Of a DNA stretch of 64,000 nt, positions 25,498 through 62,929 are shown piece by piece. Each line of letters opens with the position of its first letter. Position 1 is the first letter of the stretch. Origin of the DNA: Lutjanus erythropterus. Lineage: Eukaryota > Chordata > Actinopteri > Lutjaniformes > Lutjanidae. Made by a program: the position numbers and the translations under genes. Under the pieces are notes generated by a model, which was not told the DNA's origin, made no database searches, and saw only the letters and a list, made by a program, of their open reading frames with translations. Location of the stretch: NCBI GenBank assembly GCA_020091685.1, contig CM034591.1, forward strand, positions 23,155,312-23,219,311, in the 5' to 3' direction.

Positions 25498-27160
25498 GTG
25501 CTCTGTAGTCGGACACATCCCTGAGCAGCTACTGTGGCTGCTGTTTAATCCAGAGGATCCAGACTTTCTCATGCTAAAGTCAGAGTACACTACTTAAACC
25601 GACCACCCACCGTCCTCTGATGGCCGGCTAGTTGCCCCACACGAAGAAGTTACAAATTAGCCTCGCGATAAACTAACTTTTATGACGCTGAATTAAATCT
25701 GGGTGGATTAGAAATCTAAAGAAATTTATAGAAATAAAAGCTAAGTAATTACATGCTTAAACCGTGAGGCGTGGGCATGAGGTTGAACTAAAATTTTGTG
25801 AATACATGGTTTCCTAAAAAATCCGCCAATAATAAAGCAAATACAAAGAGCTAGACTTCGTTCTAATACAATACACTGGCTTTTCAGGTGCAACTAATTC
25901 CTTTCGCATGAGACCACCTGGTACCACACGGCCCCAGACCCCAGCTAATCAAGTCATTATACAGTTTACAAAGGGTCAGCAGAAAGGGTAGTCTACCCTG
26001 CACAGCACATGGACAAAAGCATTGAACAAACACCGCAAACGTGGGCGCACACAGCAGAGTCTGCGGTCCGGAAAGAAGCGATTTACCATGAAAGCTAATG
26101 GCGCCATCTTGTGGCTATACTCCGGTACTACATGTATATGGTGTCTGGTTTAAAGGATCGGTTCACCCAAATTATGAAAAATAATTTCTCACTTACCTAA
26201 AGTGGCCACAGTGTTTGAAAGTAATTAAGAACATTTACTAAAGTGCTGTACTTAAGTACAATTTTGACATGCTTATTAGTTTCATGCTACTTAATACTTC
26301 TACTCCACTACATTTCAGAGGTAAATATTGTACTTTTTACTCCACTACTTTATTTTACACTTGTGTACTGTTACTATTTACATAGCAAAACATATGATAT
26401 GCTTATTTCATGTGATGCAGTACTTTATTACCCATCTACACAATAGTATACAAAGCATCTAAATTAGGCATAGGATTGACAAACTACAACATTAAAATGC
26501 TCTTACATGTATTTGTTTTTTGATAAAAACAAAATAATTTAATATTCTATAATAATATAACACTAAGGAAGGTGGCATTCTGTATAGTGACTACTTTTAC
26601 TTTGATACTTTCTGAATACATATTGCTTTCAATACTTATATACTTTTACCTAACTACACTTTAATACACGCTTTTTTATGCGGACTAGCTAATTATTGGC
26701 CTGAGAGTTGTTTCAGTGAAAACGTTTGACTATAATGTTATATTACCTAGATATTCTCAATATTTAGCTTCTTAGGCAGTTAGTGACAGTACAGATATGT
26801 GACTATAAAGCAGATTTTTAATTCTGTCTAAAACTTATAAAGTTAGTGTAACTGATAATGTAAAAAAATTGTCTTGACAATTAAGTTGCTTTATGTTAGC
26901 TAACATTAGCTACATCAGGACATCTTTAAGTTCAATATTGCAGTCTCACCTTGGACCCTTAACTACTAACGTTACATAAAGAATGGCAGGGTTTGTTCTG
27001 TGTCGCCATCATTTTTAAGTTTGACTTTTAATGCCAGTTAGTTCGTAATTAGTCAATCGCCATGTTAAGCGTCATCAGTTAGGTAGCGTTACCGGAGAGC
27101 TCACGAAGCCAAAGTACTGTTGCTATAGTTACAGACAGTTTACCTTACGGAGTAATTTAT
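25498..27160. other. mical2-dkk3 head-to-head intergenic interval
   Basis: No coding exon seen. Contains a CTCF/YY1-like site (26100-26113), a partial TTAA-type MITE end (about 26149-26215, 'ttaaaggatcggttcaccc') and GTTAGCTAAC words near 26898-26907. Otherwise AT-rich. Confidence 0.6.
26100..26113 (-). promoter_or_regulatory. CTCF/YY1-like site
   Basis: The - strand reads CCACAAGATGGCGC. It fits the CTCF core CCASYAGRKGGCGC with one mismatch and contains the YY1 core AAGATGGC. It lies between the two divergent promoters. Prediction only. Confidence 0.4.
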
Positions 27161-27188
27161 CTAGAAGGGAACCCCAGACCGCGAAAGA

Positions 27189-27198
27189 TCTCGCGAGA
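27189..27198. promoter_or_regulatory. TCTCGCGAGA (CGCG box, BANP-type) site 1
   Basis: Perfect 10-bp palindrome in the left arm of the 27161-27377 element. TCTCGCGAGA is a known core-promoter motif bound by BANP when unmethylated. Confidence 0.6.
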
Positions 27199-27339
27199 AT
27201 AAGTATTTTAACCTAGGCTATGATCTTTCCCTGCTCCTAACCAGGTGTTTTTACAAAATTACCTAAAACTTAATGTTGTCACATTAAACAACATTATAAG
27301 TTTATACAAATTGCACAATTTAGAGTCAACGTGTAGAAG

Positions 27340-27349
27340 TCTCGCGAGA
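27340..27349. promoter_or_regulatory. TCTCGCGAGA (CGCG box, BANP-type) site 2
   Basis: Perfect palindrome in the right arm of the same element, 354 bp upstream of the dkk3 start codon. Two CGCG boxes 151 bp apart lie within the likely dkk3 promoter. Confidence 0.6.
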
Positions 27350-27628
27350 GGTTCGCAAATCTTGCGTTCCCTTCTAGTCATGACCGGTAAACGTAGTCCG
27401 AAAGGCATAATGATGGAGTTAATTTAATATCAGAGAGTTGTGTTTTATGTTATGTTCTATATCTATGCATGTGTTCACGCTGAAACCAGCTAATACGTTT
27501 TTTTTCCGCTTGTTTTTTTTTTGTTTTGGTTTGGTTTTTTTTTACCTGTCTGGATGTTACAGTATGAGGTGATGACCCCCTCACAGTGACGGAGACGTAT
27601 CAGCTGTGGTGACGCTGTTTGTTTCTCA

Positions 27629-27702
27629 GCAGCATCCGCGCCACACCCTCCTCAGAGTGCAGCAGCAGCAGCAGGACCAGCAGCAGGACCAGCAGCAGCA
27701 GC
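27629..27702 (+). repeat. CAG-rich compound repeat abutting the dkk3 start codon
   Basis: Interrupted CAG units, including tandem AGCAGCAGGACC units, end directly at ATGATG. The frame stays open upstream to at least 27619 (Ser/Arg-rich) but has no ATG. Confidence 0.7.
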
Positions 27703-27900
27703 ATGATGCGAGTCGCTCTGCTAGTTTTGGCTCTCACAGCAGTCTGCCATGGCATCCTCCCTGAGATAGTGGACTCGGGCATCACTCACATCCTGGAGGA
27801 TAATTCCGACCAGACACAAACGGAACTGGACCGTATGTTTGTGGAAGTGGAGCAACTGCCAGAGGATCCGCAGCAAAAGCCTGAGGATGCGTTTCACCAA
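27703..27900 (+). CDS. dkk3: dkk3 coding exon 1 (start, signal peptide)
   Basis: 66 codons from ATG 27703 (a second ATG follows at 27706). Signal peptide, then a segment ending ELDRMFVEVEQLPEDPQQK that matches the conserved DKK3 FREVEELMEDTQHK region. Donor GTAGGC. Confidence 0.93.
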
Positions 27901-30900
27901 GTAGGCAGCCAGTTGCACCTCTCACTCAGTCTCCATCCAGCTTTTGACATGACAGAGCATTATTTCACTACTCACTGCTGATTAAGGCATAAATTATTGT
28001 GAGAATCTTTTAAAACACTTGCATCTAAGGACAGAAGTATATAAAGCTAGAGGCAGTGGCAGCAGTGGAAAGAGCTAGAATATGGGAGTGACTTTTTTTA
28101 ATGCATCTGTAATCTGTCTCTGATAATCTCTCCTGTCCTTTTAGAAGAACAACGACAGCATCAGTCCTCATCCCAGTAGCCTTCCTCCAAGCCATCATAA
28201 TGAAACTGATGATAAAGTGATTGACAGTGAATCTGTCCACACTTCAGCAGACCAGGTAGCCTTATAAACAGTACATGAAGCTGACATAGTGCCATAATGC
28301 TCGTTTCCCTTTGCTAATGAACTTACCTGATGTCCCACCTTCACACAGGAGACAAACAACATCACCACAGCAGTCGATTTCAGTGACCTGGGGAATAATA
28401 TTGATCATGTAAGTTTATTCTGTTTACCTACACTTTTAAATAATAGACAACAATAGACATAAATCAAGTGTTTGTGAAATTCATGTCTTCACTCTGCTCT
28501 AATCACTTTCAAGTTTGTCTTGTATACAGTGTATACACTGAAGTTGAAAAAATGCTGATCTGCAGCTCAAGTGCATTTATCAAAACAATCACTGTGCAAA
28601 ATTGTTCATAAATAAGTGATGGCGCTTATGCTGCATGTCACAGGAATTCACTTTCAGGATTAAAGCTTCTAACAGAGGGGTTCTTATGCAACAATACAGA
28701 TTCACAAACATGGTTATTCTAAATAATAAATAAATTTCAACTTTCTTATAAGCAGTCGAGGTTGGAAGCCAAAATGCTTAAGAAGATACCTCCTCTTTAT
28801 GAATAAAACTGTCAGGCTTCAAAGTGTCAAGACGAAGCAGTGATACAGAAATAATTTACATAGGAGTGTATGTTTACAAGTTATGATGCGTTACAATGAG
28901 ATCCAAGCGCTGTTTTACATATTTGCTAATTAGAGACCTTTTCATCAGTAGGGCTGCATTTGTTGATTATTTCTCGATAAGTTGTTTGGTCTTTAAAATG
29001 TTAGAAAATGGTAACAAATGGCAAGTCAAAGAAATCAAAGATGATGTCATAAAGGAGTGAAAAAAGATAAATATTCACATTTCAGATGCTGGAATCAGAG
29101 AATATTGATTTTTCAAATATTTTTCTTTAAAAAATTGCTCAAACCAGTTAATTGATTTAATTTAATAATTGATTAATCATTGCAGCTCTGCCTTAAAGTA
29201 TCTTTTTATAATATGAGTGGATGTCTGAGGAAGACTTGAAGAAATCTGAAAGCACTAGGTAAGTCATGAGTTAGGCGTACATATTTATACATCATCACAA
29301 AGACAGATATGTTCACATTAAAAACTGATTCAAAATCATGAGAACTCTTGTCATCTTGCTACTTCACTTTCTATACTGGCAGAAGGGAGTCCATCGAATG
29401 ATGTGCTGTTTGACACACTGTAGAGAGGCAGGAGAGGTAAATACTGTAGCTGTTTACTTAGTAACTCTGGGACAAGAGTCTGTCCTAGTTACAAGAGATA
29501 AAAATAAAACTAGAGGAGGTGCCTCTTTCTTTATAAATATATTGCAGATTTTCTCCCTGCCTAATTAGCTGCAAAAAAAAACATGAAAGGTTCATTTAAG
29601 TTTAAGTTTCTTTAGTTCTTCCTTTTGACCTGAATGCGTATTAAATCCAGAGTTTCTCTACCTTTGGGTTTGAATCCCATGTAGGGTCACATCATGTGCA
29701 GATGGGTGGCCAGAGATCTCTAAGACTGATACATTGATCTATTTTGTCTTTTACAGAATACAATTACATTTCTATATTTAAGTAGAGCCTAAGGAGGTAA
29801 CTCATGTTCTTGAAAATGTAAATAATACCATTCTTACTTCACATGATAACTGGACAGCTCTGTGATTGCTGGTTCGGACCAAACCATGGAGTTATAAAAG
29901 ATTAAGAGACCATGATGTAAGGCTTCCTCTCTTTTATCTTTAGGGGTGTATGACTGATGAGGACTGTGGGAAGGGAAGGTATTGCCTTTATGACACGCAC
30001 AACTCCAAGTGTCTGCCTTGCAAAGCAATTGATGTGGTGAGTGAACCTTGGTTACTTTTATATGAGCACCTGCACTTTTCAGTTTTCTCTAAAATGCACT
30101 ATTTCCCAGGCTCTGTCACTTTCAAACACGTGCACACGCAGTCACTTCCGGACAGCTGGGGTTTTACTTGGACTGCATTGCAGCATGTCCACAAGTGTAA
30201 TTGGAGTGTGATGTTTGATCCCTCTGTCCTATGAGCTTCACATGAAAGGACAGCATGTGTCAAGGTTAAATAAGAGCTCATCTTATCCCTCTGCTCTGTA
30301 GAACAAAAAGAATATTAGCGAGTCATATTTATAGTAATATTAATGAGAGCCTTCTCTGTAGAGACTCACCGGTTGGTTTTATTTAAGACTCAGTTATTTC
30401 TGCTGATTCTGTAGTGTCATCATTGGTTGGTGTAGCAGGGTTGAAAGCAAGGCAAAGGGATAAACATACTGGCAGTCTGCCACAGAAAGGCACAGTGTAC
30501 AGGGATAATAAATACACAGAGGACAGGATCTGTGTCTTGTCAAAAGTGCTGCACTGAAAAACTCTGTGTGGGAATAACCAGCCACATCAACAATTCATAT
30601 AGGAAGAGGGACTTGTCTCATTGCTATCAGAGACCAGTTGACCCACTGATCTCATTTATATTTAACCAAAAAAAAAGCATCAGCAGCCCTCATGCTTAGA
30701 GAATCATTATTGTCATTAATGCTCCACTGAGTTTTAGCTTTGTTGAAGTGAAGGGTGCATTATATGTTTTAATTTTTGTGACTTTTAAAGGGACACTTCA
30801 CCCCCAAATCAAATCTTCTCCAATACACTAGACCTAAATGGCTCTCATAGCACCAAAAAAAATACATTTGAAAAACTCAACTGCGACGTTTCTTTCCAGA

Positions 30901-32753: not shown

Positions 32754-35700
32754 ACTGACTCACATTGCCTTGTGAACACACAAACCAGAGTTTCCTCTGA
32801 CTCCACAGCTTTGTTGCAAAGAGTTATAGCACTTTCTGTTTGCCAGCTTAATTTAAAGTGGCAAAAGCATGGAAAATGGATGAAAATATATTTATTTTAT
32901 AAGCTTTAACTGAGACCTGAGGTTTACGATCCTTTTAGGTTTCTGAAAATGTAGAAATAAGTCACTAACAGACAACAGGAAACACTATATTTGCAAAGTC
33001 CTGTGATGTACTAAATGCTGGTTTCTTGACTATTTGCTCTAACTCTAACCCTTATCTAATGCTAAACTTTATCTAAACCAACGGTACCACACTGAATACA
33101 ACTCTAGACACTGATTATCCGTAGACTACACACCTCACGGTTTGAAATTGTGAGACGAAAATAGACAACAGTTAGCTTTGAGCTGCCCAGTTTGCAGTCT
33201 CATTGCATTTACTTTGAACAAGAGGAAGAAACCGGATATAATCGTGCTTCATGTACTGCATGACTAATGAAATAGTATCACAGAAACAGGCAATAATTGT
33301 ATTTGAGCTTCCAAGAATCACTCCTCTCAGCATTACACTTATTCGCCTACAGGACGCCAGCACTACCATGAGATGTTAGCAGAACGTGTGTGGTTTCTGA
33401 TAACAAGTCAATAGCTGCGACCAATGACTAAAACAGTTGGTTATACCGTCATCTAGGGAGCTAATGTGCATCCCAATACAAAGTTTAAGTTTAATCCAAA
33501 GTTGAAGACTAAATCCAATTCCAGCTGCTTCAATGTCCTTAAGTTGTTATGACAGAGCTTTTTGTTTCCTCTGGACTTTCCCTTCTTGTTGCAGCGAAAA
33601 TGTTGTTGGCAAACCTTGCTGTATGATCCTGGCAATATCTGCTCAGCTGCCAAGATCCTCACGTTGCTTTGTTCCACAGAGGCACAGTTTGTTTTTGCCA
33701 AAGACCGAGACCTCAACATTTTTATGGCTCGGAGATGACATGTTATTACGCTCATGACAAAAGGAAATACTGTCAAACACGCCATGTTGTGGTTTATTCT
33801 GTCTATATTGTTTGTATGTATTTTTTCTTTTATATATGCACTTCAAATTGATTGTCAATAACTTCAGCATGTATTGATTAGTCTGAGAGTTGAGTGTTGG
33901 CTGTCAGTATAAGGTACACATGAGATGTTGGTAAAAGTTTGTCTCAGGGTCAGTTATAGGACCGTAATTACTGGCTATTGAGACAAGTCTAGTTGACATT
34001 CTGCTGAGAGTTTAACAGCCAAACAGGGTATCCTGAAATTGTTACTCCTTATACTGTTTGGTTCAAGCTTTAATTGTAATAATGCTCTATGTTTTGGTCC
34101 ACTGAGCTGAATACTCCACAAAAGATGGACGTGCAACAATGGGGAAAAAAAGGATTTCCCAGGTTTAGAAGCATTAATTAAGAAAGTATTAGGTACACCT
34201 TCACAACCAAATGTAGTCAGTCAAATAGTCATGTAAAGAATGTGGTCTGAATGAGTTCAGTCTAATTTTATTGCTGAATTTGTACTGGATGGCACTGCTG
34301 AATATTTAGAGCTGTTTCTATTATTCTGTCCCAAAATGAACCATTTTAAGCAGCATAAGGATAGGATTGGTTGCAAAGTTGTGTCTAGAAGGGAATGCCA
34401 AACCCATGAAAGATCTCATGATAATTTTTAACCCAAACCATGATCTTTCCCTAACCTTAACAAAGTGTTTTCTGTTCATAAACCTAAGCAGATTTGAATC
34501 ACAACATTGTCACATTATGAAAAATAATAATAAGCTGCACAATGAAGAAATGTGTACAAGTTTTATGACTTTTGGCTTTCCTTCTATACACAACCTGGTT
34601 GAAAACCCACTGGATTGCATTAGACTGTACAGGTGTACCTAATAAACTGGAAACTAAAAATTTAAAGTAAGTAAAAATACCAAATCAGTCCAGTGGCCAT
34701 TCCCTATGTTTTGCTTGTATTTTTCCCCCATACCCTACAAATGTCCTCCTATGATTTTTAAATCATAAAATCATAGCATGTGGACACCCATACCAAACAT
34801 TTTAAGGCCTTGGACACACACAGGTGCTGGCAATTACCCTGGCTAATAAGTCCTCTGGGCAGGTGAAGCTACAATGGTTACATGATGTCATCAACCTGTA
34901 TGTACTAACAACAATGATGATGTGCAACTTCTCCCAAAAGACTAACAGCGGAGTGTCAGGGAGATGGCATTTCTAATGAAGGATATTTTAGCATGTCACA
35001 GGTGAATTAATGATGAATTCCATTTAGCTGCTTCGGTTTCAGAGTCCTGGCATTGTGCATGCTGCTAACTGAGGCACTTGAATAGGAAAGCGGCGTTGTG
35101 CTTTTCCTACAACGAGTCAAAATAACTGCTATGGAAAAGGCCTATGAAGAAGTTTGAACGTGCCCACGCGTTCCTGAAAAGAGGTCCACTCAGGCAACAT
35201 GAGTGAAAACACCTGTGCAAATGGAGCATGGTTATTCATTTTTCAACAAAATGTAGCTCATTTGAGCTAAACTTTAAATTCTGTGTAGTTTATACACCCT
35301 CATTGGACCTCGTTTGAATTAAACAAAAACTGTACCAGCATCTATAGCTGTATACCATTTACAGCTGTAATATAACCGTTAATGTTACTGTTAACACTGA
35401 ATGAAATATTTTCCCATTATTAAATTGATAGATTGCAGCCTTGTCACTAGATTTCAGCTCGCAGCTATAATCATTCGATGTTTTAGTTTCAGCTGTTGTC
35501 CGCAGCTGCATCTTGAGCTCATGCTGGACACTTCTGTAGTCCAAAAGATTACTTTTAAAGACAAATACATTAGTACCCGACACCTCATGTTACTTCAGGA
35601 CACTTTTAAAACAGTTATACTGCCTGTATCACTGCATGGTCATGTTAAACCTTAAAACAAAAAATAAATAAATAAATAACGGCCATGTTTCATCAAGCTT

Positions 35701-37726: not shown

Positions 37727-62229
<24,503 letters not shown>

Positions 62230-62560
62230 TTGTGCGACAGTTTAGACAAGCATTTATCCGGACAAGGATGTCAGCGAAAAAACTTTGCAGCGGTAAACAC
62301 AAACATTGTTTGTGTCCTGTTTGTTGTAAGTTTGGATGCTTGGATAACTAAGTTAAACTTGACAAAACTTGTAGGCTTATCAAAGTGATCGCAACACTTT
62401 CGGTTGCACTAGCCAAGCACAAAGTGTCCTGCTATAAATGGAGAAAAATGGCCGGTGTTTTACTCCGCGAGACTTCACTCAGGAGCTCTGGCGTCACATT
62501 CCATCCAGACAAGCGTGCGTGATGTGTGCGGACACGATGACGTCGGTGTGTGTGTGTGTG
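62230..62560 (-). promoter_or_regulatory. usp47: usp47 promoter region
   Basis: CpG-rich relative to surroundings, directly upstream of exon 1. On the + strand I see a YY1-like AAAATGGCCG (62445-62454), CCGCGAGA (62465-62472) and a CRE-like TGACGTCG (62538-62545), followed by a (GT)n run (62546-62560). A TATAAA at 62433 is in the wrong orientation. The start site is not determined. Confidence 0.5.
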
Positions 62561-62929
62561 CATTTTTAAAAGGACAGCGATGAAAGGAACACAAAAACAC
62601 GGCATTGCTGGTCTAACCTGTGTGAGAGAGTGATGTAGGTCAGTTAGGCAATGCTTTCAATTTGATCAATGCACTGTTTTCAATCCGATCACCTCAATTA
62701 TGACAGATTAAACTGAGTGAAGCGCACCGCATGGTTTCATAATGAACATTAACTGTTCCCATTGAACTGAACAGAAATATTAGAAGTACTTCACAAATTC
62801 ATAACTTTGCTCATAATTTCTATTTATGAATGTGAATTATGCACAGGGTCGTATTGGTCATTTGCACCACCGGGCCAGTCTTTGCACATATGCACTACAG
62901 ACTAGGAAAGTGCGCTCAGTAGAGTGCAG

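Follow-up and report, generated by a model that had tools for sequence, protein, structure and literature searches.

The window analysed in this study, a stretch of 64 kb, contains a small inverted-repeat element upstream of the first coding exon of dkk3, and this element is a copy of a MITE family (copy 1; Table 1). The neighbouring gene is a dickkopf gene, as evidenced through a Dickkopf_N domain (E 2e-8) encoded by an exon further downstream, at 29944, and USP47 and a MICAL-like flavoprotein (by eye, mical2) lie on the strand opposite dkk3. Each arm of copy 1 carries the palindrome TCTCGCGAGA, the exact 10-mer of BANP/CGCG-box promoters, and the positions of these boxes given in the initial annotation, 354 and 505 bp before the dkk3 ATG, are correct. 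Copy 1 lies within 27001-27400, the most CpG-rich stretch of 400 bp in the dkk3 region (o/e 1.25), and CpG-rich DNA reaches 160 bp past both ends of the element (o/e 1.29 and 1.39). Crude splice-site scores for a 5' intron before dkk3 gave no clear call. The window has one other large region with retained CpGs, 61001-62900, located at the presumed usp47 promoter and without TCTCGCGAGA. A small CpG-rich stretch at 25501-25900 (o/e 0.73) includes the window's third TCGCGA, at 25663, and could be a distal promoter for the MICAL-like gene on the minus strand.

Table 1. Features of the window, with position, strand and supporting evidence.
Feature	Position	Strand	Evidence
MITE copy 1, upstream of dkk3	27153..27385	+	family profile 181.6 bits at 27158-27384, extrapolated to model ends (profile includes copy 1); inverted repeat
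Left terminal inverted repeat, inner part CTAGAAGGGAAC	27161..27172	+	inverted-repeat comparison; consensus
Right terminal inverted repeat, inner part	27366..27377	-	inverted-repeat comparison
Left CGCG/BANP box TCTCGCGAGA	27189..27198	.	motif scan; aligns with left box of consensus
Right CGCG/BANP box TCTCGCGAGA	27340..27349	.	motif scan; aligns with right box of consensus
CpG-retaining promoter-like region around copy 1	27001..27600	.	o/e 0.83-1.40 (200-bp windows) vs 0.32 for the whole window
dkk3 first coding exon, ATG 27703, donor at 27901 inferred	27703..27900	+	ORF 27613-27978; Dickkopf_N domain in downstream exon
Family copy 2, left box decayed to TCTCATGATA, right box decayed or partly deleted	34377..34595	+	blastn; family profile; alignments
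Copy 2 target site duplication, left TGGTTGCAA	34368..34376	+	8/9 match to right duplicate
Copy 2 target site duplication, right TGGTTGAAA	34596..34604	+	flank comparison

The arms of copy 1 (27161-27198 and 27340-27377) are inverted copies of each other with 74% identity overall. They had been described as mirror copies, which holds for the outer 12 nt and the inner 10 nt (TCTCGCGAGA), both identical between the arms, but not for the 16-nt spacer between them, which differs; the equal offset of TCTCGCGAGA in the two arms is borne out by the arm comparison. The boundaries first proposed, 27161-27377, do enclose the inverted arms, but the terminal repeat of the family reaches 8 nt further out (GGTCGTGT in the family consensus), which places copy 1 at approximately 27153-27385. 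The left outer 8 nt of copy 1 are diverged, and no target duplication was recognisable at this copy in the flank comparison (2/9 match). Both boxes are intact although the copy is 22% diverged. A second CGCG (CCCGCGAAAG) is found in the left arm, 12 bp outside the box, at consensus position 28-34 and window position 27179-27184.

Allowing up to one mismatch, TCTCGCGAGA has only two matches in the 64-kb window, both of them perfect, compared with 0.31 expected, and at least two such matches were seen in 6 of 100 shuffled windows. The window has a single 12-nt inverted repeat that is followed, at equal offset and without overlap, by a second match of 10 nt. None of 200 Markov-simulated windows contained such an arrangement, which rules out a chance palindrome as the origin of the arms.

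A second copy of the family lies ~7 kb from copy 1 (copy 2; blastn match at 34385-34561, E 7e-13), and scores 143.1 bits at 34378-34594 with the family profile, which includes this copy. It contains no CpG (34385-34588), compared with nine in copy 1; at the positions of these nine, copy 2 has CpA or TpG at five, a gap at two and other states at two. The alignment of its right box is compatible with either decay or partial deletion. Copy 1 has kept 8/13 of the consensus CpGs and copy 2 0/10, yet copy 1 is not simply the younger of the two, as its divergence from the consensus at non-CpG sites is not lower (0.217, against 0.152 for copy 2). Copy 2 is enclosed by a larger inverted repeat (34187-34644) that starts with TATTAGGTACACCT and presumably resembles a common fish Tc1-like repeat.

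Perfect boxes and perfect pairs were counted across the window's own assembly (937.6 Mb, 444 contigs). Perfect TCTCGCGAGA occurs 2938 times in this genome, compared with 438 for the reversed control, and perfect pairs with 130-160 bases between the boxes occur 570 times, compared with 0 for the reversed control. Two samples, both drawn through intact boxes and from contigs 1 and 2, were inspected. The first, comprising the first 50 boxes of contig 1 (0 to 15.4 Mb, 31 loci), placed 44/50 boxes in the family: 14 perfect pairs account for 28 of these, near-full copies with one perfect box for another 11, and short, internally deleted variants, which reach only 14-21 bits with the profile but have visible terminal repeats, for 5. 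Of the remaining 6, a different repeat contains 5, and 1 lies outside both. The second, the next 20 listed pairs beyond the first sample with the window's own pair left out, had the family at 20/20 loci; since it was chosen for two intact boxes, it tests family membership and not retention. If all 570 pairs belong to the family, perfect pairs alone account for 1140 of the 2938 boxes (39%). A random 200 kb of contig 1 held one short variant and one family fragment, with no perfect box or full-length copy.

These counts bear out two points of the initial annotation. Copy 1 is a member of a mobile family with multiple copies, as evidenced through the second copy in the window, the excess of pairs, the family membership of the sampled boxes and pairs, and a 9-bp target duplication; the further genomic copies that the annotation had asked to be looked for are present, and its claim of a mobile family is therefore not refuted. 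The boxes do belong to the element, given that they are paired genome-wide and that most of the sampled ones lie within the family.

Several observations accompany this census. The different repeat, which has a perfect box too, reads TCTCGCGAGATCATCTCGCG...ATTTCACGTGATC or a closely similar sequence in one orientation or the other, and was found at L009, L010, L011, L012 and L021, around position 501. Three near-identical short MITE variants (L006, L007 and L021, at 2410-2530) share their flanks, which suggests that they belong to a repeat unit that is larger and younger. At G000:C2:28102789-28103175, two complete box pairs adjoin with 66 bp between them, apparently two neighbouring copies of the family. 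Pattern scans of viral contigs and of genome contigs found no element; one match in the viral contigs (L001), in a phage-like record, is read as a chance match because no matching inverted arm lies nearby.

The consensus of 27 copies is 245 bp long, too short for a transposase, with terminal inverted repeats GGTCGTGTCTAGAAGGGAACCC / GGGTTCCCTTCTAGACACGACC and one box per arm, and its interior of ~150 bp contains four CpGs. A target duplication of CTAG or TA, guessed from two copies, was replaced by one of 9 bp once more copies were compared. Duplicates of this length match at 8/9 positions or better in 5/27 copies, and at 7/9 or better in 10/47 copies compared with 0.13 expected, with lengths of 7, 8, 10 and 11 found in 2, 1, 1 and 0 copies at two mismatches. 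The family is thus a MITE family, being short, with terminal inverted repeats, a 9-bp target duplication and multiple dispersed copies. Vertebrate MITEs (Tourist/Stowaway-like elements, zebrafish Angel) are short, with inverted terminal repeats and many copies, which this family shares with them in general. The 9-bp target duplication points to a possible place among the Mutator-like elements. It is shared with maize Mu, but the terminal repeat of the latter is ~215 bp long, compared with ~22 nt in this family (PMC2774946).

At sites outside CpGs and boxes, the 48 near-full copies diverge from the consensus by a median of 0.182 (0.122-0.242); other alignments gave medians of 0.214 and 0.227, such that copies of the family are ~18-23% diverged. 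Pairwise divergence over the same 48 copies has a median of 0.310, and the mean of observed over expected is 0.953 of that for a star, with nearest neighbours a median of 0.25 apart. These near-star relations imply that most of the divergence arose after insertion. The family is an old burst whose copies have decayed mostly independently, with the exception of the near-identical short variants L006, L007 and L021.

Copies with intact boxes lie in CpG-rich surroundings. The flanks in the first sample have a median CpG o/e of 0.84 (21/25 above 0.6) and those in the second a median of 0.69 (15/21 above 0.6), compared with 0.39 for random 500-bp pieces from 200 kb of contig 1 (11.5% of 400 above 0.6). 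The flank values, used here as a proxy for an unmethylated CpG-island setting, are means of two sides of up to 250-290 bp each, and carry more noise than the control pieces of 500 bp.

The retention of the boxes was assessed in the 25 near-full copies of the first sample, in which the left box is intact in 22 and the right in 17, by asking, given one intact box, whether the other is perfect; since sampling was via an intact box, it should be noted that this partner-box test corrects for the sampling in part only. The partner box is perfect in 14/22 copies with an intact left box and in 14/17 with an intact right box. The 198 other 10-base windows of the element average 2.13 of 22 and 1.38 of 17, and those with two CpGs reach 0-2 of 22 and 0-3 of 17. 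The best other window reaches 10/22 and 8/17, against which the binomial tails for the boxes are 0.067 and 0.003, such that this window alone does not firmly set the 14/22 apart. Windows at the ends of the terminal repeats are perfect in 1/22 and 1/17 (left end) and in 3/22 and 1/17 (right end). Control CGCGs within the same copies, with the left-arm CCCGCGAAAG (6/24) as an internal control, are intact in 6/24 and 5/21, compared with 19/22 and 17/17 for the partner-box cores. At non-CpG positions, retention in the partner boxes is 0.92-0.96, compared with 0.80 in the interior; the inner terminal repeat is kept at 0.87. Five short variants (L006, L007, L021, L023 and L024) were left out of the test, of which L006, L007 and L021, being near-identical with common flanks, are not independent. 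A perfect partner box is present in 0/5 of these variants, and counting them in gives 14/23 and 14/21.

That the boxes are letter-perfect in many copies of which the rest has decayed suggests that some were taken over as promoters, and selection for promoter or enhancer use is the simplest account of their retention. It is probable, in our judgement, that an ancient MITE burst dispersed paired BANP/CGCG boxes, some of which have been kept by selection as promoters. The boxes may, however, have survived without any selection, if the MITE landed in unmethylated islands where CpGs do not decay. The flanks of intact copies are indeed CpG-rich, copy 2, which lies in CpG-poor DNA, is without any CpG, and the shielding of mammalian CpG promoters has been proposed to reach nearby transposon-derived DNA (PMC2777200). 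This is nevertheless unlikely, as most control CGCGs of these copies are gone whilst most partner-box cores are intact, and the non-CpG letters of the partner boxes are also kept better than the interior. Because the boxes outlast both kinds of site in the same copies, an unmethylated setting, though needed, is insufficient alone. The numbers point the same way: at 0.80-0.82 per site, 20 bases stay intact with a probability of ~0.012-0.019, such that 570 neutral pairs would need ~30,000-50,000 copies, or 8-14 in 264 kb, but the random 200 kb and the window together, copy 1 excluded, hold 1 full-length copy (copy 2), one short variant and one fragment.

It is more doubtful still that the box owes its conservation to transposition itself, as a subterminal site serving the transposase or some helper from the host, a site that was conserved in active source copies and not by the host later. 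A box equidistant from both ends with a differing spacer, as well as the better conservation of the inner terminal repeat, would fit such a signal, and the box may well have begun in this role; the candidates for its original function are a transposition signal and the promoter of a lost autonomous relative. The outer terminal repeat, however, which would be expected to be needed for transposition, is perfect in only 1-3/22 and 1/17 of the copies with kept boxes, and the near-star relations, the distance between nearest neighbours and the decayed target duplications indicate that divergence is mostly post-insertional. Least probable is that insertion preference alone is responsible, with the boxes incidental to an element that inserts at open promoters. 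The 9-bp duplication and CpG-rich flanks agree with this, and maize Mu has been reported to insert at open chromatin (PMC2774946), but a preference accounts for the location of copies and not for the selective retention of their boxes. It is compatible with dispersal followed by selection on the boxes, as a first step.

The CGCG box has been reported to drive bidirectional initiation 20-70 nt away, with its activity abolished by methylation (PMC6192621); accessibility is lost at the CGCG motif in zebrafish banp mutants (PMC9363121); and full-length BANP is described as mainly a tetramer that selects unmethylated CGCG (PMC11472053). Kaiso/ZBTB33 (PMC3663758) and DYRK1A (PMC10813206) have also been reported at this motif. 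We infer that methylation shaped the loss of boxes, with selection as the cause of their retention, BANP as their probable reader and promoter activity as their likely function. Under dispersal and selection, a non-autonomous DNA transposon with the palindrome TCTCGCGAGA in each subterminal region would have undergone a burst of transposition that set box pairs ~150-165 bp apart across the genome. Copies landing in methylated DNA would lose their CpGs, as copy 2 may have done, whilst at copies in unmethylated promoter-like regions, or helping to create them, oligomeric BANP would bind both boxes and keep the DNA open, with transcription starting outward in either direction, ~20-70 nt from each box. 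Where a copy proved useful, purifying selection would hold the boxes as the terminal repeats, interior and target duplications decayed.

The family resembles the CGCG/BANP promoters of vertebrate CpG islands (PMC6192621; PMC9363121) in having the identical 10-mer and a CpG-rich setting, and several boxes per promoter are reported there. Unlike in those promoters, where the box is described as a host promoter element, the perfect boxes sampled here lie mainly in one transposon family, and are often paired at a fixed offset from its ends. Transposable elements carrying the CGCG motif have been described in human, where THE1B/THE1C LTRs have BANP/ZBTB33 motifs; these showed activity in a reporter screen, and methylation repressed them (PMC10474299). 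Those elements are retroviral LTRs, however, whilst the family here is a small DNA transposon with a box per arm and boxes retained against decay. Among the titles and abstract openings listed in a literature search, no other MITE family with promoter boxes in its arms appeared. For strings from the terminal repeat and core, 13 papers contain the short one, and judging by their titles none of them concerns a transposon.

At dkk3 itself, dispersal and selection would predict plus-strand starts at ~27370-27419 and minus-strand starts at ~27119-27169, and BANP may bind the boxes of copy 1 and affect dkk3. A reading confined to this locus, in which the element is a passenger in a pre-existing promoter island and dkk3 starts elsewhere without it, is a serious possibility, though somewhat short of an even one. 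The continuation of CpG richness for 160 bp outside both ends of the element is in its favour, as is the distance of the boxes from the ATG, which exceeds the reported 20-70 nt between box and start unless the transcript has a long leader or the gene a 5' intron. Against it, the richest CpG window of the region contains the element, and both boxes are intact despite the divergence of the copy.

For the genome as a whole, we consider it an evenly balanced question whether one extinct MITE burst was the source of most of its perfect CGCG/BANP boxes, in the form of two-box, nucleosome-spaced divergent promoter modules, of which several hundred would now serve as promoters under purifying selection. 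One transposon would then have supplied the larger part of a housekeeping-type regulatory network. Transposons are already recognised as carriers of binding sites. What this family has spread is a core-promoter palindrome, in pairs at fixed spacing, to which BANP, its reported reader, binds only in the unmethylated state, and control CGCGs within individual copies provide a yardstick for its retention. Every insertion can be viewed as a natural experiment that asks if a BANP box is able to establish or maintain an unmethylated promoter; with hundreds of such replicates of known sequence, the question of how CpG islands originate can be put to the test.
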